64,000 nucleotides of DNA from Cladorhizidae sp. MBARI D1340-BT2. Lineage: Eukaryota > Porifera > Demospongiae > Poecilosclerida > Cladorhizidae. The stretch is taken from NCBI GenBank assembly GCA_028752905.1, contig JAQNBH010000017.1:37238929-37302928 (forward strand), written 5' to 3'. Of this stretch, positions 2,835 to 64,000 are shown piece after piece; the first letter of the stretch is position 1, and the number at the start of each line of letters is the position of its first letter. The notes under the pieces are model-generated. The model made no database searches. It was given only the letters and a program-made list of their open reading frames with translations, and was not told where the DNA came from. Made by a program: the position numbers and the translations under genes.

Positions 2835-2964
2835 CAGGGGTGGATCCAGCCCCCCCCTCCCCCCCTCCCCCTCCTTCCCTTTCCAATTTTTGGGGGGTTG
2901 GCAAATTTGATCTTGCAAATTTAATCATGCACTTTCTAATTTGGCTGGGTGATTGTCACACTTT

Positions 2965-3029
2965 GTTAGATGGGATGCAGCTGGTTACCTAAGGGCCCTT
3001 AGGTGTTAACCAGCTGCATGCCATCTAAC
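2965..3029. repeat. Long hairpin in the hAT 5' region
   Basis: An inverted repeat with arms of about 30 bases centred on AAGGGCCCTT. The left arm begins GTTAGATGGGATGCAGCTGG and the right arm ends CAGCTGCATGCCATCTAAC. The related minus-strand copy keeps a similar hairpin around 53697-53755, so it belongs to the element. Confidence 0.85.
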
Positions 3030-3107
3030 CGTGTGTTCAAAGTACATATATACAGCCATAAGCATGCTCATGACCTTTGGGACCTTTGACCACATGCAAC
3101 TTCTGAG

Positions 3108-5075
3108 ATGTCTAAGAGAGCTAAGTCTAAAGGACCAGCTGCTAAGAAAGTCCAGAGCATGGACATTCGACATTTCTTCAACAAAGCGTATGTCTATTAT
3201 GTTGTTTAAATTTTTAGCAAAGCTTTAGTTACATTTTTGTGGCATGTAGTGATGAAATTAGATCTGTTCCAACTGTCTGAAGCAACCACCAATGATTGTA
3301 GCCATTTTAATTTGGTGAACTCATTGAACTCAAATTATGAATCCTCTGCTGATACCACTGATACTGAATCAAGTCCAAGTTATTTTGAGGATGAAAGCAG
3401 TTCTTCTATAATGACCATTGGTCCTGCTATTGAATCAGGTAAATACAGTTCTTCGACAATGACTATTGATCCTTCCATTGAATTAGGATTCAGCAAGACA
3501 ATGGACCTCTCGAGCTAAATAGTAGTGAGAACATGGGGAACTTCAAATCTCTGTTGAAGTTTCGAGTTGATGCAGGTGATCAATTCTTGAAGGAACATTT
3601 GGAAACAGCAAGTGCCAATGCTTCATATATTAGCAAAGAAACTCAAAATCAGATGATAGAGATCTAATTCGGAGTAAAGTTTTAACAAATGTGTAGGAAG
3701 CTAGGTTCTTTTCTATTATTGCAGACAAAGCAACAGATTCTGCAAATGAAGAACAGCTAGCCATCAGCATAAGATACGTTGATGATGTAAAGCCACAAGA
3801 AAGTTTTTAGGGTTCCGTGAGTATCTTTCTGGTGTCACAGGCGAGGCAATTGCCAATGATATTCTTGGTCAGACTAATTGGCAGTTAGATCCACACTTGT
3901 TGAGAGGCCAGGTATTTGGTGGTGCTGGTGCAATGGCTGGTAGGTCAAGAGTAGCTGCATTGTGCATCCCACAAGTTAAACTTGTGCATAGTGAAATGTT
4001 GTAGCTACCATAAGAGATGTTGGCAATAATTATGATGGGAGTAGACAAAGTAGTTCGTTTTTCCCCGAATTCCCCTAAAAGGCAGTTGTCTTTAGAGAAA
4101 TGGATACTCTACCTGAAGAAAGAAGAAAAACTCTAAAATCACTATGTCGCACCAGGTGGGTGGAATGCCAAGAGGCTTTTCAGGTCTTCACTGATCTTTA
4201 CATTGCTATTGTCAGTTCTTTGGAGTCAATTGCCAACAGTACAGGGTGGAACAGAGAATCCAGATCAGATGCTCGATCACTACTCTTGGCTTTATCTCAA
4301 TTTCAATTTCTTGTAGCCTTAGAAACCACGAAGAAGGTTTTGGAGTACACAAGAGGATTAAACAGGGACAGTATAAGCCATCTTGCTCTCTCTAACTTTG
4401 TTTTTCTGTATTGAACTTCAAGGTCGATACATTGATGTAGCACGTGCTAACCAGGAAGTGGAAATGGTAATAAAAAAACTATGAAAGGCTTCGCACAGAG
4501 GTGGAGACATTTCATGCAAAATGTACACTGCAGCAAAGAGAATGGCCCTGACAGTAGGTATTGAAGAGTCACCAAGACTTGCATCCAGGCAGCAACATTG
4601 AAGTAATACAACAGCCACAAACTACCAGGAATATTACTTTCATCAAGCTATTACCATCCTCAATTGTTTCTGCTGATTCTGATATTTGAGCAGTGAAGTG
4701 CTTGAAGGCAGTATTCTACATTTGTACAGAGGTGACCTTCCATCACCAGAGTACCTGGATTCAGAGCTTCAGTTATGGAAACAAAAATGGAGCGATAACC
4801 TTCAAGCATCAGTGTTAGTCTACTCGCCAGAAAAGGCAGTCAACTATGCAGACAAAGATTTTTTCCTTAATATTTTTTTGCTAATGGGTACTTTGCCAGT
4901 GACAAGTTGAAACGTTCTATTAGTATGCTAAAACATATTAAATCACCCTTGAGAAGCACCATAGACTCAATGGTTTATCTATGCTATTTTTTCACCAAAA
5001 TATTGAAATTACATCAGAGGTTTGTAGATGCATTTGCTAGGCGACACCCACGTAGAATGTTGTTGTGAACATTAA
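3108..5075 (+). pseudogene. hAT transposase relic (DUF4371 + hAT dimerisation)
   Basis: The frame opens at 3108 with a basic, nuclear-signal-like start (MSKRAKSKGPAAKK), then an acidic Ser/Asp/Glu-rich stretch (3330-3500). DUF4371 features follow: NMGNFKSLLKFRVDAG (about 3531), ADKATDSANEEQLAIS (about 3721), and GRSRVAAL (about 3940). Then come TLPEERRKTLKSLCRTRWVE (about 4105-4160) and a C-terminal dimerisation remnant with KLKRSISMLKH near 4905. At least five frame changes or stops separate these pieces. Compared with the copy at 48.7-49.7 kb, the TTF-type zinc finger is deleted at the AGGATTCAGCAAGACAATGG junction near 3486. The transposase would have cut and joined element ends; it cannot be made now. 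Confidence 0.85.
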
Positions 5076-16493: not shown

Positions 16494-16625
16494 TGTAGTT
16501 GATGACTGGCTTCCAGATTTTCCCTCAGTGATTACTCCACCAGTTGGAACAACGTCTGCCCCTGGCATCCCTACTTCACCTCCATCAGAAATTCACAACG
16601 GAAGCATTATAAGACGGTCCACTCA
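16494..16625 (+). pseudogene. Pol C-terminal tail split by the Gmr1-like insertion
   Basis: After the integrase deletion, the frame resumes with a Pro/Ser/Thr-rich tail that ends RRSTH at 16625. Directly past the inserted element, from 22545, the sequence reads on as TRNRQPPQ once the 5-bp duplication is discounted. R-R-S-T-R-N-R-x-P-P is a common tail of Ty3 Pol proteins. The insertion therefore landed in the last codons of pol, and the same reading of the join independently supports both element boundaries. Confidence 0.85.
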
Positions 16626-17267
16626 TGTCATGAAAAACCAGTTTTCTCCCAGTACAGACACTTTAGCTGGCTGAGCAGATCCCTGGTTTTCACGCGATGC
16701 CTGATCTTTGACTCCCAGTCTGTCCTACTGGCAAGCCTCAGAACAAGCCAAACTCAGCAACTCTCAACAGAATTGCTGGATTCCCAAATATAACTACAGT
16801 TAGTTATGATGAGATACGTAAATATGCTGAGCAATGACAAGATAAAACAACACAATATCAACCACAATAACAAAGGTTCAGAGGGTTCTTATCTAACAGT
16901 TCTTAATTGCTGGTTGCAGATGTATAGCAGTCTCTGGCAATATTCACCGTATCTGACCTAACTACTCCCTAGCTGTTTCTTATATACTGTTCTAACTACT
17001 CAGTTTGATGTCATCGGGTCATCATGGCACCGACCCTTGGCGACCAATCCGATGTCTTGTCTTATCAGGTGAGAGGTGTGTAGATCTTTCCTCTGGCAGG
17101 TGGACCACATCCTTTATAGTGTCTGGTGGTGAGGTCCTTCGTCTGTTCCCGCACTCGCTACCATAGTTTCCACACATCTGGTGTACGGCTTGACCACTAG
17201 GTTCTTTGGCAACAAGAGCTGCTGGTTTGGCTTGTGAACTCAGTCAGGGAGATAGAATTCCCTGACA
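16626..17267 (-). repeat. 3' LTR of the Gmr1-like element
   Basis: 642 bp. Closely matches 21879-22544 apart from substitutions and small indels. One example is the segment GGCTTCATCCCGGGCTGTTG of the other LTR, which is shortened here near 17230. It starts TG and ends CA on the plus strand, as LTRs do. Confidence 0.93.
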
Positions 17268-21643: not shown

Positions 21644-21878
21644 AACAATACAATGAAAAATACACACTCCCGAAAGAAAATACACTCAGTGGTTATACAA
21701 AACAAAATATAACCTAGAGTTGGGTTTGGTTTCACAAGCCCCAAGGTTCTCAAGTGACCTGGGCTGTTTCCCACTAATCACAAAAAAAAATTATGTACTC
21801 ACAACCTCTCACTCAGGCTGGAGCTACAATAGTAACGTAGATCCTTTTTTTCAACATGGATCCCACCACTGCCACCAA

Positions 21879-22544
21879 TGTCATGAAAAACCAGCCTTCT
21901 CCCAGTACAGACACTTTAGCTGGCTGAGCAGATCCCTGGTCTTCACGCGACGCCTGATCTTTGACTCCCAGTCTGTCCTACTGGCAATCCTCAGAACAAA
22001 CCTAACTCAGCAACTCTCAACAGAATTGCTGGATTCCCAAATAAACTACAGTTAGTTATATTATAATGATGAGATACGTAAATATGCTGAGCAATGACAA
22101 GATAACACAACACAATATCAACTACAATAACAAAGGTTCAGAGTGTTCTTATCTAACAGTTCTTAATTGCTGGTTGCAGATGTATAGCAGTCTCTGGCAA
22201 TATTCACGGTATCTGTCCTAACTACTCCCTAGCTGTTTCTTATATACTGTTCTAACTACTCAGTTTGATGTCATCGGGTCGTCATGGCACCGACCCTTGG
22301 CGACCAATCTGATGTCTTGTCTTATCAGGTGAGGGGTGTGTAGATCTTATTTCCTCTGGCAGGTGGACCACATCCTTTATAGTGTCTGGTGGTGAGGTCC
22401 TTCGACTGTTCCCACACTCGCTACCATGGTTTCCACACATCTGGTGTACGGCTTGACCACTAGGTTCTTTGGCAACAACAGCTGCTGGTTTGGCTTCATC
22501 CCGGGCTGTTGTGAACTCAGTCAGGGAGATAGAATTCCCGGACA
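21879..22544 (-). repeat. 5' LTR of the Gmr1-like element
   Basis: 666 bp. On the minus strand it ends in TGACA and is followed by the primer-binding site TTGGTGGCAGTGGTGGGA. It shares CTAACAGTTCTTAATTGCTG and CAGTTTGATGTCATCGGGTC with the other LTR. Confidence 0.93.
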
Positions 22545-25812: not shown

Positions 25813-25817
25813 ATTAT

Positions 25818-26025
25818 TAGTTAAATGCAATGCACCTTCTCATTCATGGATCAAACTGGATAATAAATCTATATGATGTTCAGAGATGCGTGCTCTAACT
25901 AAAGTGTATGACAAGGGGCATGCGCATGGTAAGGGGTCGCTAACATGGTAAGGGATCGCTATAACAGGTAGGTACATGATACAAGGTGTGTGCATGGAAT
26001 GAATAGTTTAGATGATTATTGTCTA
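25818..26025 (-). repeat. 3' LTR of the intact element
   Basis: 208 bp, starting TAGTTAAATGCAATGCACC and ending TTATTGTCTA on the plus strand. It lacks one copy of a 19-base GGTAAGGG-containing unit that is present in the other LTR. Confidence 0.95.
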
Positions 26026-26040
26026 TCTCCCCCCAAGTCC
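26026..26040 (-). promoter_or_regulatory. Polypurine tract next to the 3' LTR
   Basis: On the minus strand the sequence reads ACTTGGGGGGAGA directly before the LTR start TAGACAATA. This is the expected position and composition for the plus-strand DNA primer. The same TTGGGGGGAGATAGACAATA join occurs in the related element at 49781-49795. Confidence 0.85.
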
Positions 26041-26062: not shown

Positions 26063-29000
26063 TTAGGGAGCCTGTCCGTATCTTTGCGGGGGCTTTATGG
26101 TCCTCGTACTTCTCCGTAGGGTCTGGTCTGGGTTGGTGGGTTTGGGTGGTGGTGGTGGGATCTTGGCCAACGTTTTGGGGGCCAGTGGTGGTAGGTTGTC
26201 TCGGTGGTTCTGGGTGCCGGCGACAGCTGCGTATGTTCGGGTGGTGGCCGGCGTGGTAGTTGGCTGCCTCTGGGTTGTTGGTTCCAGAGAGCCAGGTAAT
26301 GGTTGGCTGGTTGATGTAGCCGGGATGATTGGTAGAGGTTGGCTGGGTGGTGGTGCCTGGGTGCCTGGTGATGAGTGGCTAGGTGGCGGTGCCGGGGTGC
26401 CTGGTGATGGGTGGCTAGGTGGCGGTGCCGGGGTGCCTGGTGATGGTAGGGGGTGGTCCGGTGGTGGGATGGGGAAGGTGTTCCTCCTGAGGTATTGGCG
26501 GTTGCGAGTGGTAAGTCTGCCGTTGCTGTCCATCCGGACTTGATACTGATGATACTGCATGACCTCTACCACCATGCCTGTGCTGTCCCATTTGGTTGGG
26601 TGGTGGCCGGTCTGGTTTTGCACCAGTACTCTGTCTCCGCGTATGAGGGGGGAGAGGTTTTTGGTGTGCTCCGTCCAGCGTATCTTGCCCAGGGATTGGC
26701 GCTTCTCTAGTGCTGTTAGCCTTATCTGTTGGGTAGCACCTTCCTGGGTCGGCTGTTGAAGTCGTGTTGGGAGGGTAGGTAGCAGGTCTCTGGTTGGGCG
26801 GCCAAAGAGGCACATGGCCGGTGACGTCCTCGTGTCAGGGCAAGGGCAGTTCCTGTAGGTCAGGAGTGCCTTGAAGAAGGCTGAATTCAGGGCGCCCCCT
26901 GGGTCTGTGTTACCGGTGATGAGTCGCTTGACGGTTTTGACCCCTGTTTCGGCGCGGTTGTTCGCGTGGGGGTGGTATGCCGAGGATGTCCTGTGGTGGA
27001 CCCCCCAGCTAGCCAGCAGATCTTTTGTTGCGTGGGCGGTGAATTCGGGTCCTCCATCTGTTGTGAGCGTGGCTGGGATGCCAAAGGTTGCAAAGGTCTC
27101 CCTGAGTACCGGTATGAGGCCTGTGGCTCCGCTGCTCGCCTGCGATACGATGGGCCATCCCGAGAAGCGATCCACCAGTACGAGGTAGACGGATCCTTCG
27201 TGGTGGAAGAAGTCTGTGTGTAGGTGCTCGAACGGGTGGTCCGCCTCCTCAGGGGTTATTGGTGGCATGTGGGGTTGAGAGGGGGCATTCCCGTTGCAGA
27301 TGTGGCATCTGCTCCTTGTGGCGGCGATATCTGCTGTCAGGCCTGGCCAGTATATGGATGCTTTCGCCCTGGCTGTCATCCCGCTTGTCCCTTGGTGTGC
27401 AGTGTGCAGGGTGGCAAGGCATGCTTGCCGTAGGGAGGAGGGGATGATGAGACGGTCGCCCAGACATACCACGTCGTCGACTATTGTGAGGTCGGTTATC
27501 ACATGAAAATACGCCTGTATCCCCACTGGGAGCAAGTCACGTTTGTTGGGGGATCCTGCTTCTATGACCAGCATAAGGTCCTGGAGGGATTGGTCTGCCG
27601 TGGTGGCTGTCTGAAGCTGTTCCCAGTTGATGGGGGTGGCTGAGATCGCTGTGCACATTGCTGAGGAGAGGCCGTCGTCGTCTGCGAGGGCAAGGGTGGA
27701 GCAGTTCGGGCCGGGGGCTGGCAGGTCATCTGGCAGGTGGAGTCTGGCGGGTGTCCTTGTCCCAGATGGGTGACGTGACAGGGCGTCACTGGTCAGGTTT
27801 CTGGCGCCCGGGATGTATACCATCCTGAAGCGGTACCTGAGGGTCTTCTCTTTGAGATTCCTCAGGCGGGGATTCGGGATGTCCTCCAGGCACCTGTCCC
27901 CGAATAGCTTCAGCAGTGGTTTGTGCTCCACCGCTACTGTCAGGTCCCGGCACCCGAGTACAAAGTGCCTGGGTTTGTCAAGCGCGTCGGCTACGGCTAG
28001 GGCCTCCCCTTCCACAGGGGTGTATCGAGACTCTGCTGCATGAGTGAATCTCGACCCCACCAAGGTGACGCGCCAGCCGTCCCGGCAACAGAAAGGATCG
28101 CGGGACGGGCACTGGCAGTGTTTCTGTGTGAGCCAGAAGCCAATCCCGTCCTTGCTCCAGTCTGTCGCCAGGCAGGTGGGGCGCCCCTTGTCGAAGATCT
28201 CTACTCCCGCTCGGATGCTCTCGTATATGTGTTGTTTGGACGCGGCGAGGGCTTCGGTCAGCTGATCTGACCATTGGAAGGGGGTGGAGGGCATCAGGAG
28301 ATCCCTGAAGGGGAGCATGGTTGCTGTCATGGCGAAGGTGTAGGAAATTTGGTTTACGAGGCCAAACCATGCTCTGATGTCAGTGATGTTTGTTGGGGTG
28401 GGGAATTCCTTGATGGCTGCCGTGAATTTGTCAGCGGGGCGGACCTCTGTGGGGGTGACTGTGAACCCCGCGAACTCCACTTCGTCTTCTGCAAAGCGGA
28501 ACTTCGTTGGGTTCAGGGTGATGCCGTTCGTGGCACAAATGTGCAGCCACCGCACTGCCTGATAGAAGGATCCCTCTATGTCATCCGCCCATAGCAGGGC
28601 ATCATCGATGCACTTGGTCTTGTTGGTTACATTGGTAATGAGGGCGTCGTACCGTGCCGTGTAGGCGTCTCCCGAGGCGATGTAGCCTTGTGGGGCCGTC
28701 AGGTAGCAGTACCTCCCCCAGGGTGTGATAAACGTGGTGTAATGTTTGTCTCCCTCAGCTAGGGCCACGGAGTGGTAGCCGTTCCACGCGTCGAAGATTG
28801 TTTTCTTCATCATTCGTGGGATGGCCCTGGGGTGGTGGAAGGGTGAAGGGCAGTGGTGGGTCTCCCGGGTGGCGTGCTGGTTGAGGGGTTGGAAGTTTAT
28901 GGTCCTCCTTAGCGCCCCGTTCTTCTTGGTGCAGATCACCATTCGGTGGCACCAAGTGACGGGCGTGCCCAGGGGGACCTTTTCCAGCACGCCGAGCCGG

Positions 29001-30910
29001 ACAGCCCTGTCCAGCCCTGCCTTCACCTCCTCCTGCCAGTGAATAGGTATGGTGATGGGGGTGTGACATGGTTTGGGGACAGCGTTGGGGTCGATCTTCA
29101 GCGAGAGAGGGGGGCCGGACATCATAGGCAGAGGCTGGTGTTCGCACGTGTTGAATGCGCTGGATGCGTAGAGGTTGAGGAGATACTTCTCCAGCTTCTG
29201 TCTGTTTCCTTCTGTGGCTGGGAATGGCAGTGTCGTGGGCCTATCTGGTGGTGGGGATCTGGTGGGGCAGGAGCATGGGCGAGCCGCAGGTTGTGTCTGA
29301 GGTGCTGGTGGTTTGGCCTGCCGAGTTAGTGGTGGGCTTGTCCCGGTGGTTCCGGTGTCCCTAATCAGTGCCAGTGGTTGGCTGGTGATCTTGCCGTTCG
29401 GGGCTGGTGAACGCAGCGGGAATCCCAGATTAATTAGTCCCAGGTCGCTGCATGCTGACATGCTGAGGTAAAGCTTGGTGGCTACGGGACTAAAGTACAC
29501 CATTTGACTCGTTTCCTTGTCTGTGTCTCTGGCTCTGATCCTGGTGAGTGCGGCTCCCATGATGGGCATGGGGTTGCCACTGGCAGAGTTCATGGTGAGG
29601 GAGCTTGGGATGAGGTCTTGTGCACTGAGGTTGAGGTCACGCATGAGGGTGGGGCCTGCCAAGCAACTCTGGCAGCCGGTGTCGGCGAGGGCACTTGTGG
29701 TGAGGTTTCGCCGCTCTCTCCTGAGGGTTTGCCCGTGGGTCTGGAAGTCTGCTCGATGGGTGGAGACGATGACGTTGAGGGTTGGTTGGGGTGGTGAGCG
29801 ACGCTGTGCCCAGGTTTGGGATGCCTGGTCCCAGGTTTGGTGTGGCAGGGTGCCTTCCGTCATGTCACTGACCCTTTCCTGGATGGCACTCTCTTGCTCT
29901 GCTGTCTGCCAACACATCTGTGATGTGTGGTTGGGGCGGCCGCAGGATTGGCAAGTTTTGCCAAATGCAGGGCATTGGGTCCTCCTGATGGCCGTCCTTG
30001 CTCTGGTGCCATGGCCTTGGCGGCCGCAGAAGCAGCATGCTGTCTTGCTGTTCGGATGTGGTGTGGGCGTGGTTGTGGGCCATATGGGCGTGGCTGACCA
30101 GTTGGATTTGGGGTGCGTGGCTTTGGGTGGTGGGTGCTGCCGCTGGAGCTTATACCCACTATGCAGTGCATCCCCCTGGTCTGCCTCATCATTGATGGCA
30201 CTGTTGCTAGCTTGGGGTGGGGTAGTCATTGTGGTAAATGATTGCTTGCCTATGACCCTCACCATTATAAACTGTACCAGCTCCTCGACTGTCTGGTCTT
30301 TGTCTGGCTCCCTCAACAGGTCCGCCTGGATGTCGGGGTCGGCGAGGCCGACGCACAGTTGGTCCGCCACTCTGTCCTCGCTCTGGCTGTTGACTATCGC
30401 ACAGCCCGTGCATTTTCGGTCGAATCGACACACCTCGGCCTGGCCTCGCAGGCGGGCCACGAACGACCTGACGGTTTCGCCCCTGTCTTGAGTCATCCTA
30501 GAGAGCGTCACTCTGGCTGCCCTCTTGTTCTCCTCCTGCACTGCCATAGCTATGATGGCTGCCAGGAGGTCTGGCTCTGTGTATTCCCTGAGGGGCGTGG
30601 GGCCGGTGGCATTCATGGTGACTTCCCGGCGGAGCTTGGAGTCTAGGCATGCCAGCAGCTGGATGGTGATATGTGGGGCAGCCAGGCTGGCTGCCTGCGA
30701 GTACTCTTTCCACCGGTTCAGGAAGTACTGCCACCCCTTCGAGGTTTCTCCGGCTGATAGCTCTGGTCTGGGGGTTTGGGTGGGCTTGAAGGAGGCTGCC
30801 TGACTGTGGTCCATCGAGATGTGGCCTGTCATGAGGGCTACTGCCATTCCTGGTTCTGTCCCCTCTGCTATGGTGAAGGGGCAGCCGGCTTTGGGGCAGT
30901 TCGCTGCCAT
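26063..30910 (-). CDS. Gag-Pol polyprotein, single intact frame, 1615 aa
   Basis: One uninterrupted frame carries all retrotransposon functions; no frameshift separates gag from pol. N-terminal residues 5-35 form a possible C2H2-type finger (C5, C10, H30, H35). A capsid-like part follows, then two Cys/His clusters at about 292-333 (CCFCGRQGHG; CQSCGRPNHTSQMC). Protease: ALADTGCQS, active-site D-T-G at 410-412. Reverse transcriptase about 620-830, with KKNGALRRTINFQPLN and CIDDALLWADD at 767-777 (I-D-D instead of Y-x-D-D). RNase H from about 912 (LATDWSKDG). Integrase: zinc region about 1169-1205, catalytic D1232, D1285 (TTDGGPEF) and E1321. The C-terminus has APPPSHPSPGTP repeats and ends RRSTRTIKPPQRYG. 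No chromodomain is seen. The start at 30910 is the first Met after the leader. High confidence; the exact Ty3 lineage is not assigned. Confidence 0.97.
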   Translation of the reverse strand: MAANCPKAGCPFTIAEGTEPGMAVALMTGHISMDHSQAASFKPTQTPRPELSAGETSKGWQYFLNRWKEYSQAASLAAPHITIQLLACLDSKLRREVTMNATGPTPLREYTEPDLLAAIIAMAVQEENKRAARVTLSRMTQDRGETVRSFVARLRGQAEVCRFDRKCTGCAIVNSQSEDRVADQLCVGLADPDIQADLLREPDKDQTVEELVQFIMVRVIGKQSFTTMTTPPQASNSAINDEADQGDALHSGYKLQRQHPPPKATHPKSNWSATPIWPTTTPTPHPNSKTACCFCGRQGHGTRARTAIRRTQCPAFGKTCQSCGRPNHTSQMCWQTAEQESAIQERVSDMTEGTLPHQTWDQASQTWAQRRSPPQPTLNVIVSTHRADFQTHGQTLRRERRNLTTSALADTGCQSCLAGPTLMRDLNLSAQDLIPSSLTMNSASGNPMPIMGAALTRIRARDTDKETSQMVYFSPVATKLYLSMSACSDLGLINLGFPLRSPAPNGKITSQPLALIRDTGTTGTSPPLTRQAKPPAPQTQPAARPCSCPTRSPPPDRPTTLPFPATEGNRQKLEKYLLNLYASSAFNTCEHQPLPMMSGPPLSLKIDPNAVPKPCHTPITIPIHWQEEVKAGLDRAVRLGVLEKVPLGTPVTWCHRMVICTKKNGALRRTINFQPLNQHATRETHHCPSPFHHPRAIPRMMKKTIFDAWNGYHSVALAEGDKHYTTFITPWGRYCYLTAPQGYIASGDAYTARYDALITNVTNKTKCIDDALLWADDIEGSFYQAVRWLHICATNGITLNPTKFRFAEDEVEFAGFTVTPTEVRPADKFTAAIKEFPTPTNITDIRAWFGLVNQISYTFAMTATMLPFRDLLMPSTPFQWSDQLTEALAASKQHIYESIRAGVEIFDKGRPTCLATDWSKDGIGFWLTQKHCQCPSRDPFCCRDGWRVTLVGSRFTHAAESRYTPVEGEALAVADALDKPRHFVLGCRDLTVAVEHKPLLKLFGDRCLEDIPNPRLRNLKEKTLRYRFRMVYIPGARNLTSDALSRHPSGTRTPARLHLPDDLPAPGPNCSTLALADDDGLSSAMCTAISATPINWEQLQTATTADQSLQDLMLVIEAGSPNKRDLLPVGIQAYFHVITDLTIVDDVVCLGDRLIIPSSLRQACLATLHTAHQGTSGMTARAKASIYWPGLTADIAATRSRCHICNGNAPSQPHMPPITPEEADHPFEHLHTDFFHHEGSVYLVLVDRFSGWPIVSQASSGATGLIPVLRETFATFGIPATLTTDGGPEFTAHATKDLLASWGVHHRTSSAYHPHANNRAETGVKTVKRLITGNTDPGGALNSAFFKALLTYRNCPCPDTRTSPAMCLFGRPTRDLLPTLPTRLQQPTQEGATQQIRLTALEKRQSLGKIRWTEHTKNLSPLIRGDRVLVQNQTGHHPTKWDSTGMVVEVMQYHQYQVRMDSNGRLTTRNRQYLRRNTFPIPPPDHPLPSPGTPAPPPSHPSPGTPAPPPSHSSPGTQAPPPSQPLPIIPATSTSQPLPGSLEPTTQRQPTTTPATTRTYAAVAGTQNHRDNLPPLAPKTLAKIPPPPPKPTNPDQTLRRSTRTIKPPQRYGQAP

Positions 30911-31019: not shown

Positions 31020-31033
31020 AGTTAGAGCACGCA
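31020..31033 (-). promoter_or_regulatory. Primer-binding site complementary to the element's own LTR
   Basis: Immediately inside the 5' LTR the minus strand reads TGCGTGCTCTAACT. The LTR itself carries, on the minus strand, AGTTAGAGCACGCA at 31116-31103, a perfect 14-base complement (15 with the adjoining LTR base). No TGG-starting tRNA site is present. A transcript starting near 31116 would have a 5' end able to pair with this site, with its 3' side abutting the LTR edge, the geometry known from Tf1 self-priming. Site seen directly; the priming role is inferred. Confidence 0.72.
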
Positions 31034-31260
31034 TAGTTAAATGCAATGCACCTTCTCATTCATGGATCAAACTGGATAATAAATCGATATGATGTTCAGA
31101 GATGCGTGCTCTAACTAAAGTGTATGACAAGGGGCATGCGCATGGTAAGGGGTCGCTAACATGGTAAGGGATCACTAACATGGTAAGGGATCGCTATAAC
31201 AGGGAGGTACATGATACAAGGTGTGTGCATGGAATGAATAGTTTAGATGATTATTGTCTA
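31034..31260 (-). repeat. 5' LTR of the intact element
   Basis: 227 bp. Contains three tandem copies of an approximately 19-base unit with CATGGTAAGGG (two in the other LTR). On the minus strand these precede the inferred RNA start near 31116, so they lie in the probable promoter part (U3). The 14 bases at 31103-31116 are complementary to the primer site at 31020-31033. Confidence 0.95.
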
Positions 31261-31265
31261 ATTAT

Positions 31266-35536: not shown

Positions 35537-38317
35537 TTTGTCTGAGTAGAATTTTCCCCTAAGATTCTATTCTCGGATTCTCATACAAGGTACCTATTAT
35601 TATTTCACAATTACACTGAGATTCCCAATAATAGCCCATTATGCTCAATTATTCTCAAAATTATTGTCAATTATTCTCAAGATTATTATCATTAATAATG
35701 CAACATGTGGGGGCGGTTCTGCTAAAAAAACGTCTGTTGACTTTGACTGCCCATAACTTTTTTTATAATTGGTTTGTGTAGATAATATTATGCTCAAATT
35801 GTTGCTTGTTCTATGTGCTTTCCAATAATATATAAAATATCTCTAGAAACATGTTTTGTCAGAAGATGCATGCAGAAACATCCAAGGCAGGACCCTCCTC
35901 CTCTTGGCCGACCCCCACTATACTCACACTCAGACGTTTTTTTACCAGTTTGGGGTGAACAACCTCTTTAGAATCATGGTTCCGATAGTTATATTGTAGC
36001 ATAAGTGAAGCTTGTACATAATCTTCCAAAGAAACTGTTTGTTGCTCACTAAAATAATTAGCTAGCAGAGAAAACACTCTCTCTGCTGCAGCAGATGTAC
36101 AACTGTTAGAGCACAGGGGAAGTTCAGATTTGTGTCTTCTCCACCATAGTAGCTTGTCAATATCTGCTGATAATCCATTGGCTTTAGCCATATAAAGAGC
36201 TAACTCGCTCATGATAGTGTCGGTATCAAGAAAAGGAATGACACGGAGATTTTCTATGTCATTACTGGTGGGTTTTAGCTCGTTAATTTTGGTAAGATCG
36301 AAGTAGCGAATATACCGAAAGACCAAAACTGCTTCTTTCAGGTCACTTCCAAATGTTTTGTGGAAATAATCATATGCAGGCTTGGCACATGCTTTAGCAT
36401 AGTCAATTAGCTGCTGTAGCTGATTATTGTTGCTGGATAACTTGCTTGCAACTGCATTTGTATTAGGATAATGCATCGTTGAAATAGCAGCCTGAAGCAT
36501 GCTAACTTCCTCAAAAGCAGTAAAGGCAAGTGGCCCATCCCCTTCTAGTCGATATGTAGCTTTAACAAATGCTTCTCCCACATCAATGGTAATAGCTAGT
36601 TCAATTTGTTGTAATTTTCGATATTTGCCAGCATCAGAAAGTATTTCTTGAAGCCTAATCTTCGACGGTGGAAGGTCATCACTATCAAGAAATGAAGGTA
36701 AATCCCCATCCCCAAATGTGTCGTGAAGATGTTTAATAACCTCCCGCACTTAGACCACCAGTGAGTGACAGAGTATATAGGAAGGAGGTGAGATACCTGT
36801 TTTAGTCTTCCATGCCAGCTTGGTTTTTGGGCTCCTGGAAAAAAGGCCAATCCAGCCTTTCATAAACTCATCCAGTATTTGCGTTCTCATGTGTTCCCCA
36901 ACATGATCAAGAGGGCGAGCAAAACATCCAATATCGACGAGTTAAGGGTAAACAATACTCAAGGTGCGAACTGCAGTGTTGTCAGATGCACAGTACACAT
37001 GCAAGCTAACAGCATGTTTGGTGCAATACTTTGCTCAATAGATAAGCATACAATCAACTGATGAGCAAGTTCCTCTCCAGTTAGGCTCTTTGCTGGGAGC
37101 ATAAGTCTAACCACAAGCTGCTTAATATTAAACTGCTAATCAACAAAACGTAGTAGAATTACCAGTGCCTCACAAACATGAGTAGTTCCATCAAAAATCA
37201 CTGATACTTGCTTTTCGTTGATTTGAGCTTTTACACTAACCAATTCTTGATGATGAATAAATGGTATCAGCTGACGTAGATTCTGGGTGCTGGTGAGTTG
37301 AAATGCAGTTTCTTTGAAAACCTCACAAAAGCAGTCAATTTTATTGATAGGTACACCTGCCTTCATAAAAACTGTTACTACTTTAATCCGAAAAATGCGA
37401 ACAGATTCAGGAAGGGTTTCTCCAACTGGTTGGGCATCTTTACTATAGCATGTCAGCCATATTTCTTTCTCTCTTATCTTTTGTTACCAAACGTTTTTCC
37501 CCAGTATCATGCTTTGACGACTGTAGGTGTTTACATAATACACTTTTTTGAGTGAAAGAGTCTCCCTGCATGCATTACAAAATAATTTCCCCAAAGTTAC
37601 ACTCAAACATTCCTTGGGGAATTCTTTTACTCTCTGTGATGAGTCAATATAGTTTAGCTCAGCAACTACAGCTCCCTTGGCCCGCTTTTTCCCTTTTGGA
37701 GGATTTGCTGTTATCTTCCTCTTTCTTGACAAATCAGAAGCACTTAAGTATGTCTACAAGACTAGTAGTAGTTATATTCACTTCTTCTGGAACAATAGTT
37801 TCTTCTGGTTCAGAGTTGGAGGCCATAATAATGACTCCATAATAATGACTCCAGCATCCACAAGCAGCTCCAGAAGCTCGTTAACGATCACCAGGATGAC
37901 TGGGATGAACTTATAGAATGAAAACATCATGTTGATAACAATGAATATGCAAACATCCTGGTGATAACAATGAATATGTATTTGGAATGATCATTAGCTG
38001 CCATCTTTCACACAGATTCAGAATACACAAGCAGGTGGCCTTGCATCATGTGATTCTCATGTCCATGGCAAGCAGGTGCCTGTGGTTTGTCAACTTGTCA
38101 CTATGTGCAATATATGGTCTGTCAACTTTCATTATGTGCAATACCTATGTGGTCTGTCAAAATCTGAAGCTAGTCACTTATCACAGCTGCTATCCTTATT
38201 CCTTGAGTGTTGTTATTGTTAGGATTCTCAAAATGTTCCCTATTATTCCAGCATTATTCTTGGATTCTTAAGCATACCTATTATTCTCAAAATTATGCTA
38301 GCATAATTTATACCGTA
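35537..38317 (-). mobile_element. 2.8-kb hAT element, parent family of the 429-bp copy
   Basis: The ends match those of the 429-bp element at 5405-5833. On the left are TGTCTGAGTAG and ATTTTCCCCTAAGATTCTAT; on the right are ATGCTAGCATAATTTATACC and GTA. The left end lacks about 10 bases of the inverted repeat. Flanks CTGATGGA (35529-35536) and CTGAAGGG (38318-38325) agree at 6 of 8 bases, a probable decayed 8-bp target duplication. The interior encodes one hAT transposase on the minus strand with a good C-terminal half. Confidence 0.85.
35859..37732 (-). pseudogene. hAT transposase of the 2.8-kb element
   Basis: The N-terminal block (37732-37484) starts MSRKRKITANPPKGKK, a basic nuclear-type signal, and has a BED-like finger LFCNACRETL. 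The next block (37366-37136) contains VSVIFDGTTHVCEALVILLR, where the Asp fits the first catalytic position of hAT cores. The C-terminal block (36749-35859, 296 codons unbroken) ends in the dimerisation motif SAAAERVFSLLANYFSEQQT, very close to the version left in the 429-bp element. Stops or frameshifts lie near 37480, 37135 and 36750. Introns could explain some gaps, but I cannot place convincing splice sites, so I call it a pseudogene. Confidence 0.82.
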
Positions 38318-41440: not shown

Positions 41441-44165
41441 ACTCATGGCTCAGTCAAAGTTAAAGGCTTTTTTCAAAGCCACCCCACACAGCTAAGTAAG
41501 TTGATCTAAACTGAGCAGTGATCGAGAATATTATGCTATTGAATAGATTGCCAACTTAGTACTAGTACTAGCTAGCTATAGTCCTTGCAGCCACCCACTA
41601 CTGCTAGCTAGTAGAGTTAATTTACATAGAAATGTCCACATTTAATGCATAGGAAACAAAAAAGGACCAACAAGAACACCACTTTTCCATCTCCAGCTGT
41701 GGTACCTGTCACTCTTCCTGGGTCTCCTGCTTCAGTCCATTGTGTCTCCTCTGAGTCCTCTGTGTCTGTGATTCTCACCCAGCCCTCTGTGTCTGTCACA
41801 GAGAACTCTCTATCTGTGTCTCCCACCCAGCCCTCTCTGTGTGTGTCTCTCAGCCAGCCCTCTCTGTGTGTATCTCCCACCCAGCCCTCAGGCTCTGTGT
41901 GTCTGTGTCTCCCCCTGAGCCTACTGAGCCTGCGCTATTACCGCCTTCATGTTCCGCTTCTGTCCTGCCCTCTCATTCCACGTCTCATCTGCCCTGCACT
42001 TCCTTGTCCACTTTTTCTGCTGCTTCTTCGCCAAGTGCTTCAATTGATTTTGAGAAGTGTAACGATATTGGCTTGCTTATGCGCTCAATGTCCCAAACAG
42101 ATATCTTGAATTTGGCTCCAGAGTGCAAGTATTCACTTTTAGTTAATCATTTTAAGCCTGATAGTTCATTTACATTTCCAAGTAGTTATTTAGATGTATT
42201 TAGATGGCTGTAATAGGTCTTGTCAACATAAATACTTGGCTGAAAACCCTTGGTTTGTTTATAGTAAAGTAGAAGATGGAAGTAGAAGATGGAATATTTT
42301 GTTTGCCATGTGTTCTCTTTGGTTTGGGTCATTTTGTATGTAATGGATTTAATGCATGGTCTAGGAAAACTAAAAAGTTTGCCAGTCACAACTGTATGCA
42401 GTACCATCAGCTGGCTTTAGCTCGGGCAGATGCTTTAAAGTCTTCTCATGTGTGTCCAGAGTCTTCTATTAAGAATCGTTTGCTGCATATAGATGAGAGT
42501 AACATAGCAACAAATAGGTACATAATAAGATGTATGGCTGATGCAATACTTCTTTGTGGCAAGCAATGTATAGCTATTCGAGGTCACAGAGATGATAGCA
42601 CGGCTGATTCTGAGGTCAACAGAGGGAATTTTTTAGCACTTCTTGAATACTCTGTGAGGTCCGGAAAAGCTGCATTAGCCAAGCATTTGAAAGATGCTTA
42701 AAAGAATGCAACTTATAGTACTAGCAAAACCACCCAAAATTAACTCATTGAATGCATAGGTGACTATATTAGAGATAGTATAATACAGGAAATTAATCAA
42801 GCTAAATATTATTCTATTCTTAGTGATGAAGTGGTCGATATATCCAGTAAGGAGCAGGTGTCAGTAGTGTAAGATTTGTAGATAGTAAGTGTACTGTAAA
42901 GAGAAGAATTCTTAGATTTCATAAGTACAGAAAGGATCACTGGAGAGGTTTTGGCTCTTGTAATAAAAGAAGCACTGAATAAGTTTGACTTAGACTTTGA
43001 AGATTGTAGGGGACAAGGCTATGATGGTGCTAGCAATATGTCTAGTGCAAGGGGTGTGCAGGGTCGTCTCTTGGCAGAAAATCCTAAAGTCACATATATC
43101 CACTGTAATAGTCACGTGCTTAATTTTTGTATTGTTGAAGCTTGTATATAGTTTACCTCCTATTCGTAATATGAATTCTACTGTTACTGAGACAGCATAT
43201 TTCTTCCATTATAGTGCTAAACGGCAACTATTTCTTGAGAAAGTAATTGATAAGGGAACTAGCGTTGTTAAAGTATCTTTGTAGAACAAGATGGATTTAT
43301 CGGCACAACGCTTATGAAATTTTTTATGTTTTGTATCAATTCCTTGTAACTGCAATGGAAGCAATTACAGAACGATCCTACATATGAGGATATGAACTGG
43401 GATATGAAAACAATTGTGGCAGCCAATGGCTTGCTCAAGATGTACCTTTCCTTTCCTTTAATAATATCTTTCATAGCAACAATGAATTCTATGTCTGTTA
43501 TAAAACCTAGACGTATAAAATTACAAAAGAAAAGTAGTAATATAGTTAAAGCTTATACGGATGTTAAAGACGTACTGAATGAACTTTGTGTAGTTCGTCA
43601 AAGTGAGGAAATGTTACATTCATGGTATGTGAAAGCTGAAACTATAGCTTATGATGTTGGCGTGGTTCCTGAAGTCCCACGTGTATCTGCTCGACAAATT
43701 TACAGAAATAATGTGGAGTACAGTTCTGTGGAAGAATACTATCGAAGAACTGCTATGCTTCCTTTATTGGACCACTTAGTTCAACAAATGAATGATAGGT
43801 TTGGTAAGACTCAAACAGTAGCAGCCAATTTAATCAATCTTATACCTTCTATAATCACTACTTGGGATGATATATCTTTAGAGGACTTGATTTCTTTATA
43901 TAATGATGACTTGCCAAGTACTGCACTTGTGTCTACTAAGGTGTGGAGGTGGAAGGCAAAGTGGCAGAGTCAAGATGTTGACAAGCGGCCATCCACCCTT
44001 CAAGCTCTGAAAGAGTGTGACAAGGATTACTTTCCTAACCTTTACGTACTGCTGCGCATCGCATGTACTATTTCAGTCACATCATGTGAGAACGAGAGGG
44101 CCAATAGTACACATAGTATGGGGCAGGACAGATTATCCGCATTTGCATTGATATATTCATTATAG
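41441..44165 (+). pseudogene. ZMYM1/DUF4371-type hAT transposase relic
   Basis: The first short coding piece at 41441 reads MAQSKLKAFFKATPHS, followed by a GTAAG-like donor. An acceptor at about 41651 leads into a Ser/Pro/Val-rich region with PSLCVSLSQ-type repeats. Then come a TTF-type zinc finger (FCLPCVLFGLG, about 42300), DUF4371 features (NRGNFLALLEYSVRSG, about 42615; GQGYDGASNMSSARGVQGR, about 43010; HCNSHVLNFC, about 43100) and a long C-terminal block (43392-44165). That block ends with ISVTSCENERANSTHS, the dimerisation motif of this hAT group. Stops and frameshifts near 42205, 42700, 43150 and 43280 disable it. Parts are long enough to be confident of the family. Confidence 0.87.
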
Positions 44166-49669: not shown

Positions 49670-49780
49670 TAGCCACAATGTGTATACAGACTGGCTAGTA
49701 ATGTGATGCGCATGCGTACAGGACAATGATAATAGGTACGGATCGATTGTGTGTGAGTGTATGTAGTATAGTATTGTCTA
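49670..49780 (-). repeat. 3' LTR of the short-LTR element
   Basis: Starts TAGCCACAATGTGTATACAG and ends AGTATTGTCTA. It differs from the other LTR by a 3-base (CCA) and a 4-base (ATGT) indel. Confidence 0.88.
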
Positions 49781-53065: not shown

Positions 53066-53249
53066 CCTACGTAGTGGTGTGCTCCAATTGGGGTCTGTCG
53101 ATCTCGTCTCTTGGTCGCCTCTTTCTGATAGGTGGGGGACCTCCTGGGCTCTTCAACGTGTTGCCCTTGGAGTCTGTATACGCATTGATAATAAGGGGAT
53201 CGCCCTCTTTGGTCGCGATGCCACTGAATCAGAATTGGTAGTTCACGAA

Positions 53250-53361
53250 TAGCAATGTGTATACAGACTGGCTAGTAATGTGATGCGCATGCGTACATGT
53301 AGGACAATGATAATAGGTACGGATCGATTGTGTGTGAGTGTATGTAGTATAGTATTGTCTA
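53250..53361 (-). repeat. 5' LTR of the short-LTR element
   Basis: Starts TAGCAATGTGTATACAGACT and ends AGTATTGTCTA. On the minus strand it is followed by TTCGTGAACTACCAATTCTG; I find no complement of this in the LTR and no TGG-type tRNA site. Confidence 0.88.
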
Positions 53362-61369: not shown

Positions 61370-61835
61370 CCGAAACTACAATATCCTGTTTCCACAATTG
61401 AATCCCACTTATTTCACACACACACATGCATGCACGCAGAACACACAAACAAATATATAACACATGTGTATGCATGCACACACACAGACAGAGAGGCACC
61501 ACTTGCAGATCACAGGAACTGTCTTTGTTGTTTCCTCATTGGCATTCCCCATCATCATCAAAGCTGCAGAGGCAGCACTAATACTAGGGTTTCTGCCATA
61601 CAAGGCCAGGTCAGTGGCTAGTTCAGGCCCAGGACTATGTCTAGAGCCAGGCAATGGCTAGGAGCAGGAGAGTAGCTAAGGCTAGCCAGAGCAATGGTCA
61701 GGGCAATGGCTAGGGCCAGAGGAGTAGCTAGAGAAATGCAATCCATAATGCCTATAATAACAGTATTGTGATGTAATGCTAGGGCTGGTCTCCTTCCCTC
61801 TTGGTGGCTCGAGGGAGACTAGATCAAGTAATTTT
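61370..61835. repeat. Tandem duplication, second copy
   Basis: Second member of the pair described at 60600-61110. It runs directly into the alternating purine-pyrimidine array. Confidence 0.8.
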
Positions 61836-61839
61836 TAAC

Positions 61840-62935
61840 ACATGCAGACAATGCACGCATACACATATGCATGCATATAATATATGCACACACACACATG
61901 CATGCATATATAAGCACACATACATGCATGCATATATATGCATGCACACACACACATGCATGCATATATATGCACGCACACACACACATGCATGCATATA
62001 TATGCACGCACACACACATATATGCATGCATACACACATGTATGCATATATATGCATGCACACACATGCATGCATATATATGCACGCACACACACATGCA
62101 TGCATATATATGCATGCAAACACACATGCATGCATGCATATATATGCACGCACACACACATGCATGCATATATATGCACGCACACACACCTGCATGCATA
62201 TATATGCACACACACACACATGCATGCATATATATGCACGCACACACACATGCATGCATATATATGCACGCACACACACATGCATGCATATATATGCATG
62301 CACACACACATGCATGCATATATATGCACGCACACACACCTGCATGCATATATATGCACACACACATATGCATGCATATATATGCACACACACATGCATG
62401 CATATATATGCACGCATACACACATGCATGCATATATACGCACACACACACACATGCATGCATATATATGCATGCACACACACATGCATGCATATATATA
62501 TGCACGCACACGCACAGGCATGCATATATATGCACACACACACACATGCACGTATATATGCATGCACACACACACACATGCATGCATATATATGTACACA
62601 TACACATGCATGCATATATATGCATGCACACACACATGCATGCATATATATGCACGCACACACACCTGCATGCATATATATGCATGCACACACACATGGA
62701 TGCATATATATATATATATATATGCACGCACACACACATGCATGCATATATAATGCACGCACGCACACATGCATGCATAATATTATATATGCACGCACAC
62801 ACACACGTATATATGCATGCACACACACACACATGTATACATATATATGCACGCATACACACATGCATGCATAATATTATATATGCACGCACACACACAC
62901 GTATATATGCATGCACACACACACACATGCATGCA
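61840..62935. repeat. 1.1-kb alternating purine-pyrimidine minisatellite
   Basis: About 35 copies of a 26-36-base unit such as CACACACATGCATGCATATA followed by TATGCACG. Almost every step alternates purine and pyrimidine: (CA)n, TGCATGCA and TATATA. Frames of 270-390 codons on both strands (His/Ala/Cys/Tyr/Ile/Met repeats) are artefacts. Confidence 0.97.
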
Positions 62936-64000
62936 GTATTATAGCTGTTGCAAAGCCACTTGCTCTGCTCTCCTCTTCTCTGATCCAATTCCAATTAAAT
63001 ACTTGAAGTCAAAGGATATTATTTGTCAGTGAGCACACTTATGGCTGCTCCCAAACACATATATATACCAAGAAAAGGAAACTGCTTCAAACTTAAGAAG
63101 CCACTCATTATCACTCACTCTTGAGGGAAGCCATTATAATGACCCACGCACACACACACACTCTCTCTCTCCCTCTGGTAATCACCACACACACTTAAAA
63201 GCCATTATCCATTTTTAGACATGGTCCTCTCTCTCTCTCTGAAGGCAGCTTGCAACCAAATGCATGTACAATAAATAATTGCATAATTGGTCAATTAGAG
63301 ATCATGACTTCCTTCTGACAACAAATTATACTCCCTACGAAGAACACCACCTTGCTGATTTGACCTAAAATAAGGAAAACTGACCTTATAAGAATACCAC
63401 ACCAACCCTTGTTCTGATCAACACCTTCACACACACACCCACACACACACACAACACACACACCACACACGCACACATACAAACACACAAACAAACATTT
63501 ACTACTCCTAATTGCATGCTGCAAGCACTAGCAGAGATACCCACACTCAGTTTGCAGGAGTCAAGCTGGTGTGGCATCCAGCGGCCTCTAAACACACATA
63601 CACACACAAACATACACACAAACACACACACAGAGAGAGAGACAGACATAGGTATGCATTATGGCAGCCTGCTTTGTTTTTCTTTCTTTTTATCTTGAAG
63701 CCGTCAACTTTGACATTTCCCGCTGTAAATTTTGTCCATTCAGCAATTAAAATGTTAGAGAGGCAGTCTCATCAACAAACTGCTTGTATTATGTTTGCTC
63801 TACATAGCTAGTGCAGTTTATAGAGTGTGGCTAGGCGCAGCCTCACCTAGCATTATATGAGCTCCAAAGTCGCGCATAGTTTATCGGCAACTACCCTCTG
63901 CCTTTACTCCTACCCTCTCTTCCCTGTACCTAGCTCTGACCACAACTCCATCCATTTCTCTCCACCTCTCACCTCTGACTCTCTCTCTCTCTCTCCTTTA
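62936..64000. other. No recognisable gene; CA and CT runs
   Basis: Simple runs at about 63150-63175 (CA, CT), 63225-63240 (CT), 63428-63490 (CA) and 63593-63640 (CA then GA), with CT-rich sequence at the very end. No gene, RNA or transposon end recognised. Confidence 0.55.

Follow-up and report, generated by a model that had tools for sequence, protein, structure and literature searches.

Some Ty3-type retrotransposons are described as priming reverse transcription from their own RNA, and Butler et al. 2001 is reportedly a cited source on such elements. According to the passages cited here, in fission-yeast Tf1 the first 11 nucleotides of the RNA pair with a site adjacent to the LTR and RNase H cuts between nucleotides 11 and 12 (PMC7175516), and in Tj1 of S. 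japonicus a segment of the LTR is complementary to the element's own site (PMC4600332). Vertebrate Tf1/sushi elements and plant Tcn1, also of Ty3 type, are described as or predicted to be self-primed, and the cited part of the same plant survey predicts self-priming for the TAR lineage of Ty1/copia, outside Tf1/sushi, so that more than one clade would have this mode (PMC6317226). Taken together, these excerpts describe or predict self-priming for Tf1, Tf2, Tj1, fungal and vertebrate Tf1/sushi elements, plant Tcn1 and TAR copia elements (PMC4600332, PMC6317226, PMC7175516, PMC6934838).

The plant survey, in the part cited, found a chromodomain in 94% of chromoviruses and in no other group (PMC6317226). 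For Skipper chromoviruses and SM-Tcn1, the cited passages report neither a tRNA site nor a complement in the LTR (PMC5006619, PMC2864245), so the lack of TGG alone proves nothing on self-priming. Bivalve TRIMs have paired segments near their start, for which the cited text proposes no clear priming mechanism, and it refers to similar ones in GalEa elements (PMC6934838); a tRNA-Met-type site is reported for the GalEa-like CoRex1 in the passage cited (PMC3587641).

Architecture of E1 and the match between its LTR and edge site

In the window, i.e. the whole stretch of 64,000 nucleotides of sponge DNA that was analysed, we identified on the minus strand E1, a Ty3-type element whose gag-pol frame is open (31260-25818; Table 1). 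Its protein contains, in this order, the Pfam domains RVT_1, RT_RNaseH, H2C2 and rve, and the solved sequence that matches it best is Ty3 Gag-Pol. With RT-RNase H followed by integrase, LTRs, a polypurine tract (PPT) and a target-site duplication (TSD) of 5 bp, E1 is a Ty3/gypsy element. The U3 part of its 5' LTR contains a 19-nt tandem duplication, and 208 nt is the length of most other full LTRs listed. This unit (window ~31160-31200; copies L023-L052) is found once or twice, and the two LTRs of a single insertion can differ, 227 versus 208 nt, in either direction (L023, L032). TSDs of 5 bp are present in E1 and in the subfamilies C and D described below. The LTRs of E1, C, D and the tubeworm element L001 start with TAG and end with CTA or CGA, not TG...CA.

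An earlier note on this DNA had pointed to a perfect 14-base complement between the inner edge of the 5' LTR and the LTR interior, to the lack of a tRNA-like TGG site and to a predicted primer whose 3' end would lie exactly at the LTR edge. The sequence bears out all three points. The site TGCGTGCTCTAACT is the exact complement of AGTTAGAGCACGCA, which is present in both LTRs, and the helix reaches 15 bp when the last base of the LTR is included. No TGG was found in the first 20 bases of the site. Since the LTR borders, the TSD ATAAT on both sides and the adjoining PPT agree, the site begins exactly at the LTR edge, with a gap of zero. When the E1 LTR, taken with one flanking base, was submitted to dinucleotide shuffling, an anchored match of 14 was reached by none of 20,000 shuffles, the best of them giving 12.

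Table 1. Features of E1 and of its relative E2 in the window
Feature	Position	Strand	Remarks
E1 5' LTR	31034..31260	-	227 nt, TAGAC...AACTA
Target-site duplication ATAAT, 5' side of E1	31261..31265	.	
E1 predicted self-primer AGTTAGAGCACGCA	31103..31116	-	predicted RNA nt 1-14; begins at A of initiator-like TTTAGTT
E1 loop / U5 part	31034..31102	-	69 nt between primer and site
E1 predicted primer binding site TGCGTGCTCTAACT	31020..31033	-	gap to LTR edge zero
E1 gag-pol	26063..30910	-	single uninterrupted frame, ATG at 30910; RT, RNase H, integrase H2C2 and core
E1 polypurine tract CTTGGGGGGAGA	26026..26037	-	immediately precedes 3' LTR
E1 3' LTR	25818..26025	-	208 nt; same primer sequence at 25900-25887
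Target-site duplication ATAAT, 3' side of E1	25813..25817	.	
E2 5' LTR	53185..53361	-	inner edge inferred afterwards from U5 common with subfamily C
E2 predicted primer AGTCTGTATACACA	53256..53269	-	
E2 site TGCGTATACAGACT	53171..53184	-	one A-C mismatch to primer
E2 3' LTR	49676..49780	-	broken off 3 nt beyond predicted primer end
E2 polypurine tract CTTGGGGGGAGA	49792-49781	-	

Elsewhere in the window, two open frames, at 35859-36749 (minus strand) and 43350-44165 (plus strand), have ends that resemble, by eye, the dimerisation region of hAT transposases. Positions 835-1642 hold tandem repeats at 52-nt steps, and at ~61800-63000 there is a long array of low complexity in which several frames are open.

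Primer and site in copies, subfamilies and relatives

We searched the host genome (857 Mb, 325 contigs) for copies of E1; the scoring of 29 of 26,583 first-look candidates gave at least 30 loci with a protein identity of 88-100%. At the 28 5' LTR edges of this subfamily, 14/14 pairs are kept in 20, 13 in seven and 8 in one with a damaged site; these are counts of copies and not of independent events, since some copies are duplicates of one insertion, as seen from the flanks shared by L035-L037 and the 3' flanks shared by L033/L034 and by L038/L044. A TSD of 5 bp was found in 20/20 copies tested, 19 of the TSDs being different, and this fixes the LTR edge with a zero gap to the site. In L031, L033 and L034 a T>C change in the site breaks one pair, in L028 and L041 the pair at primer nucleotide 1 is lost, and in L026 and L049 the primer is altered in the 5' LTR. 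Strict re-templating would be incompatible with the changes in these copies, unless they arose after insertion. The LTR pairs of L027, L029, L041 and L043 are identical over their last 150 nt, which suggests recent activity, and the ungapped LTR differences of 80 and 88 in L040 and L042 were taken as indel artefacts.

Two further subfamilies, C and D, were obtained with the protein P0016 of a relative as query. For this search 28 of 29,974 candidates were scored and 29 matches were listed, two of which are halves of one element; we examined the 5' ends of all 28 elements among the matches listed, ten of them with the 3' end also and 18 with the 5' end only. Direct-repeat borders alone misplaced the edge in L053, L055, L059 and L061, and the borders were re-derived with TSDs. 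These were found in nine of the ten C and D copies with both ends, the tenth, L053, having been left out because no 5' LTR start was found in the piece examined. Subfamily C has the primer ACTTGTCCATGCA and the site TGCATGGACAAGT, and subfamily D has ACTTGTGCATGCA and TGCATGCACAAGT. The C copy L057 shows a two-sided change, with ACTTGTTCATGCA in both LTRs and TGCATGAACAAGT at the edge. An internal TGG at position 5 of the site in subfamily C is absent from L057 and D.

The C and D 5' ends keep 13/13 pairs in 26 cases and 12/13 in one, and the primer is lost in one, L081. The earlier note had named as a refuting observation that copies keep the inner site and lose the LTR site. We did not observe such a pattern in the 56 5' ends: the single copy with a site and no primer is L081, owing to the truncation of its 5' LTR on the outer side. 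Altogether, the match is complete or short of a single pair in 54/56 5' ends, which come from three subfamilies of one genome (27/28 in the E1 subfamily and 27/28 in C and D).

The window contains a second, decayed and diverged relative, E2 (53361-49676), with the same polypurine tract. With the edge that was assumed at first, the anchored test failed (3 nt), and an unanchored match of 13/15 was equalled by two of 3,000 shuffles; this edge was replaced after the fact, using the U5 common with subfamily C. An LTR of 109 nt, at which the repeat stops and the following CTATT resembles a TSD, was tried and is ruled out: the U5 of subfamily C contains TTGCTATTC, so the CTATT at E2 is U5. CpG decay could account for the A-C mismatch, given its position.

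E2 lies inside a repeat (window 53846-48804, minus strand), a second copy of which, at 2869-4136 on the plus strand, shows the empty site as CTATT followed by GAATCAGG; no 3' target duplication was seen at the E2 locus. Two truncated LTRs are broken at the predicted border between primer and U5, namely the 3' LTR of E2 (window 49676) and the 5' LTR of L081. The latter starts at the first U5 bases after the primer and adjoins a satellite that contains TGTCCA. These breaks could be due to chance or to microhomology, or could be the trace of a cDNA that ended at the cut.

A further relative, L001, lies on C44, a contig of 5,200 bp in a bacterial bin that comes from the tubeworm Escarpia laminata; we took it as host DNA. 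The ends of the contig overlap, with one collapsed LTR. The complement in L001 is perfect over 16 nt, and in the shuffle test the best shuffle gave 14 against 15 observed. Animal-type retroelements in deposited bacterial bins were seen in two cases, L001 in the tubeworm symbiont bin and the protein P0188 in Candidatus Thiodiazotropha; presumably they are host DNA.

We then compared primer and site across six variants (E1, E2, C, L057, D and L001), which amount to about four independent lineages since C, L057 and D are close relatives. Among the edge-anchored pairs, 77/78 are Watson-Crick, a number reached by 1/720 primer-site assignments, the true one, the mean being 47.8. Two-sided changes relative to E1 occur at 11/13 positions in at least one variant, and position 7 shows all four Watson-Crick pairs (G-C, A-T, C-G and T-A). 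The two pairs adjacent to the edge are invariant, with CA as the last bases of the primer and TG as the first of the site. The match therefore outlasts the changes of letters from lineage to lineage, suggesting that the likely primer of these elements is the first 13-15 nt of the element RNA. A comparison of genome copies for covarying changes in the two sites had been proposed as a check of a Tf1-style self-priming reading; it gave a positive answer, primer and site covarying between copies and between subfamilies, and this speaks for that reading.

Proteins of the E1 family occur in sea anemones, molluscs and a tubeworm, and those listed include named ones from Batillaria, Mizuhopecten, Mytilus, Nematostella and Actinostola. 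We aligned E1 with 18 proteins chosen from 120 listed relatives. The Chromo family was recognised at E<=1 in 0/19 of these proteins, a chromodomain too diverged for Pfam being conceivable; the absence of a visible chromodomain in E1 thus agrees with what had been noted before. The polymerase motif, previously called an unusual I-D-D, is indeed present and reads C-I-D-D, but it is no peculiarity of the E1 copy, since the 19 proteins have CIDD in nine cases, CVDD in nine and SIDD in one. Viral contigs yielded no relative, 13 loci with the PPT pattern being without tblastn match; no match to the family was found in phages, and plasmids gave two weak integrase matches only.

A proposed self-priming mechanism and its alternatives

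In all six variants the first base of the primer is the A of a YYANT motif (TTAGT, CCAGT, TCACT three times and TCATT), which we take to resemble the animal initiator. The complement ends at this A in 5/6 variants and runs 3 nt further upstream in D. Primer and site are separated by a loop of 52-72 nt; that of E2 is 65 nt by the earlier edge and longer with the moved one. The leaders are predicted to fold more stably than 200 shuffles each, with z of -2.6 for E1, -2.3 for E2 and -2.7 for L001.

We consider that self-priming from the RNA 5' end is very probably the best explanation for this Ty3-type family, judging from its sequences. RNA polymerase II would start at the initiator A in the LTR, so that the transcript would begin with the primer. 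Its first 13-15 nt, which are complementary to the site, would fold back over the loop onto it, in a predicted helix ending at the LTR edge or one to three pairs inside. By analogy with Tf1, the RNase H of the reverse transcriptase would cut after the conserved CA at the 3' end of the primer, freeing a 3' OH opposite the first base of the site. The reverse transcriptase would then copy the loop as minus-strand strong-stop DNA, and the cut would in this way set the end of the LTR. If primer or site is copied in each cycle, both would stay in step while drifting, which may be the cause of the lineage-specific pairs that we observed.

Priming at the site by a host tRNA or a tRNA fragment, the complement in the LTR being a coincidence or a by-product, would place the family with most LTR retrotransposons, which are primed by tRNA; moreover, the E1 primer is a little like a tRNA D-arm, and we counted this in favour of a tRNA. 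However, none of the six variants has TGG at the LTR edge, and their sites change at 11/13 positions and still match their own LTR, which a fixed tRNA would forbid. Judged by TGG, the family would lie outside the tRNA-primed class, which has at the LTR edge this complement of the tRNA CCA end. Two unrelated Ty3-type elements were used as controls, their edges being read by eye. X lies in the window, also on the minus strand, and has LTRs at 16619-17267 and 21872-22544 (~650-670 nt, 93% alike), with TTGGTGGCAGTGGTGGGA, which contains TGG, at the edge and a self-complement of at most 6 nt. L018, a distant element of the tubeworm bin, has TGGTGTCAGGAAGTG, likewise with TGG, at the edge, and neither control shows a match of the E1 kind. 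Both edges resemble a tRNA-Leu end, and the two elements look tRNA-primed; the E1 family lacks such an edge. An inverted repeat of at least 12 at the primer-site spacing was found in 0/6 tubeworm-bin loci (L017-L022, including L018), of which the other five may not include the LTR. Priming by a tRNA is in our opinion highly improbable for the E1 family.

Covariation demonstrates pairing and not its purpose, so the helix might instead be a conserved RNA hairpin for packaging, dimerisation or translation, with priming achieved by other means; bivalve TRIMs, in the passages cited, likewise have paired inner-domain segments with no known priming role (PMC6934838). Against such a hairpin, the site lies exactly at the LTR edge, the required start of the minus strand, in E1, C and D, whose TSDs fix the edge; in 5/6 variants the initiator-like A is the first base of the other strand, and no tRNA-type site remains at the edge. 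We hold this explanation to be quite improbable. Self-priming could also take place from a more upstream RNA 5' end, in agreement with the 3 nt by which the complement of D extends upstream of the initiator A, or in trans by a second RNA copy, pairing in cis and in trans being indistinguishable by sequence. The helix nevertheless stops at the initiator A in 5/6 variants, and the short loops of 52-72 nt would favour cis; we rate this variant, which overlaps with self-priming from the RNA 5' end and is not exclusive of it, as unlikely. Finally, observations of this kind made in a single window can be accidental, but a chance inverted repeat or an assembly artefact appears negligible in view of the 54/56 5' ends that keep the match, its recurrence in another species and a separate assembly (L001), and the covariation of primer and site.

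Comparison with known self-primed elements

Annelid and mollusc surveys define many Gypsy clades, in the part cited (PMC8556966), and we found no report of self-priming in an animal Ty3 family without chromodomain in the open-licence literature searched, as far as the available texts go, which is no proof of absence. Troyka elements are defined, in the cited passage, by CG...CG termini and a 3-bp TSD (PMC12440569); the E1 family differs from them by termini of TAG...CTA or CGA and a TSD of 5 bp. In GalEa-type copia elements and bivalve TRIMs the comparison lies with the paired segments, and unlike these the E1 family has one of the two strands within the LTR and its partner exactly at the LTR edge. 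The TAR elements are plant copia elements, whereas the E1 family is an animal Ty3-type family. Vertebrate Tf1/sushi elements and plant Tcn1 are chromoviruses, from which the E1 family, with 0/19 chromodomain matches, differs by the lack of a recognised chromodomain; the layout of the Tf1/sushi type, i.e. an LTR segment complementary to the edge site and no TGG at the edge, is present in it.

It is possible, and we propose it only tentatively, that self-priming is the mode of a whole metazoan Ty3 lineage with C[I/V]DD and without chromodomain, which would have acquired or retained it separately from Tf1/sushi. The coupled primer and site would then be a private drifting code of each subfamily, barring cross-priming among co-resident subfamilies. 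If true, self-priming would account for elements that yield no tRNA site in the customary search. As primer-site pairs differ among the numerous copies, of which some are young, the coupling can be tested by comparing sequences.

Self-priming has been worked out in Tf1, and the literature excerpts cited describe it chiefly in elements with a chromodomain; the covariation found here supports it for an animal family in which no chromodomain was recognised. Compared with the self-primed chromoviruses Tf1 and Tf2 of fission yeast and Tj1, as described in the passages cited, the E1 family has the same layout. It differs from them by its animal hosts, by the lack of a recognised chromodomain, by the motif C[I/V]DD, by a predicted primer of 13-15 nt and by LTRs of the form TAG...A.
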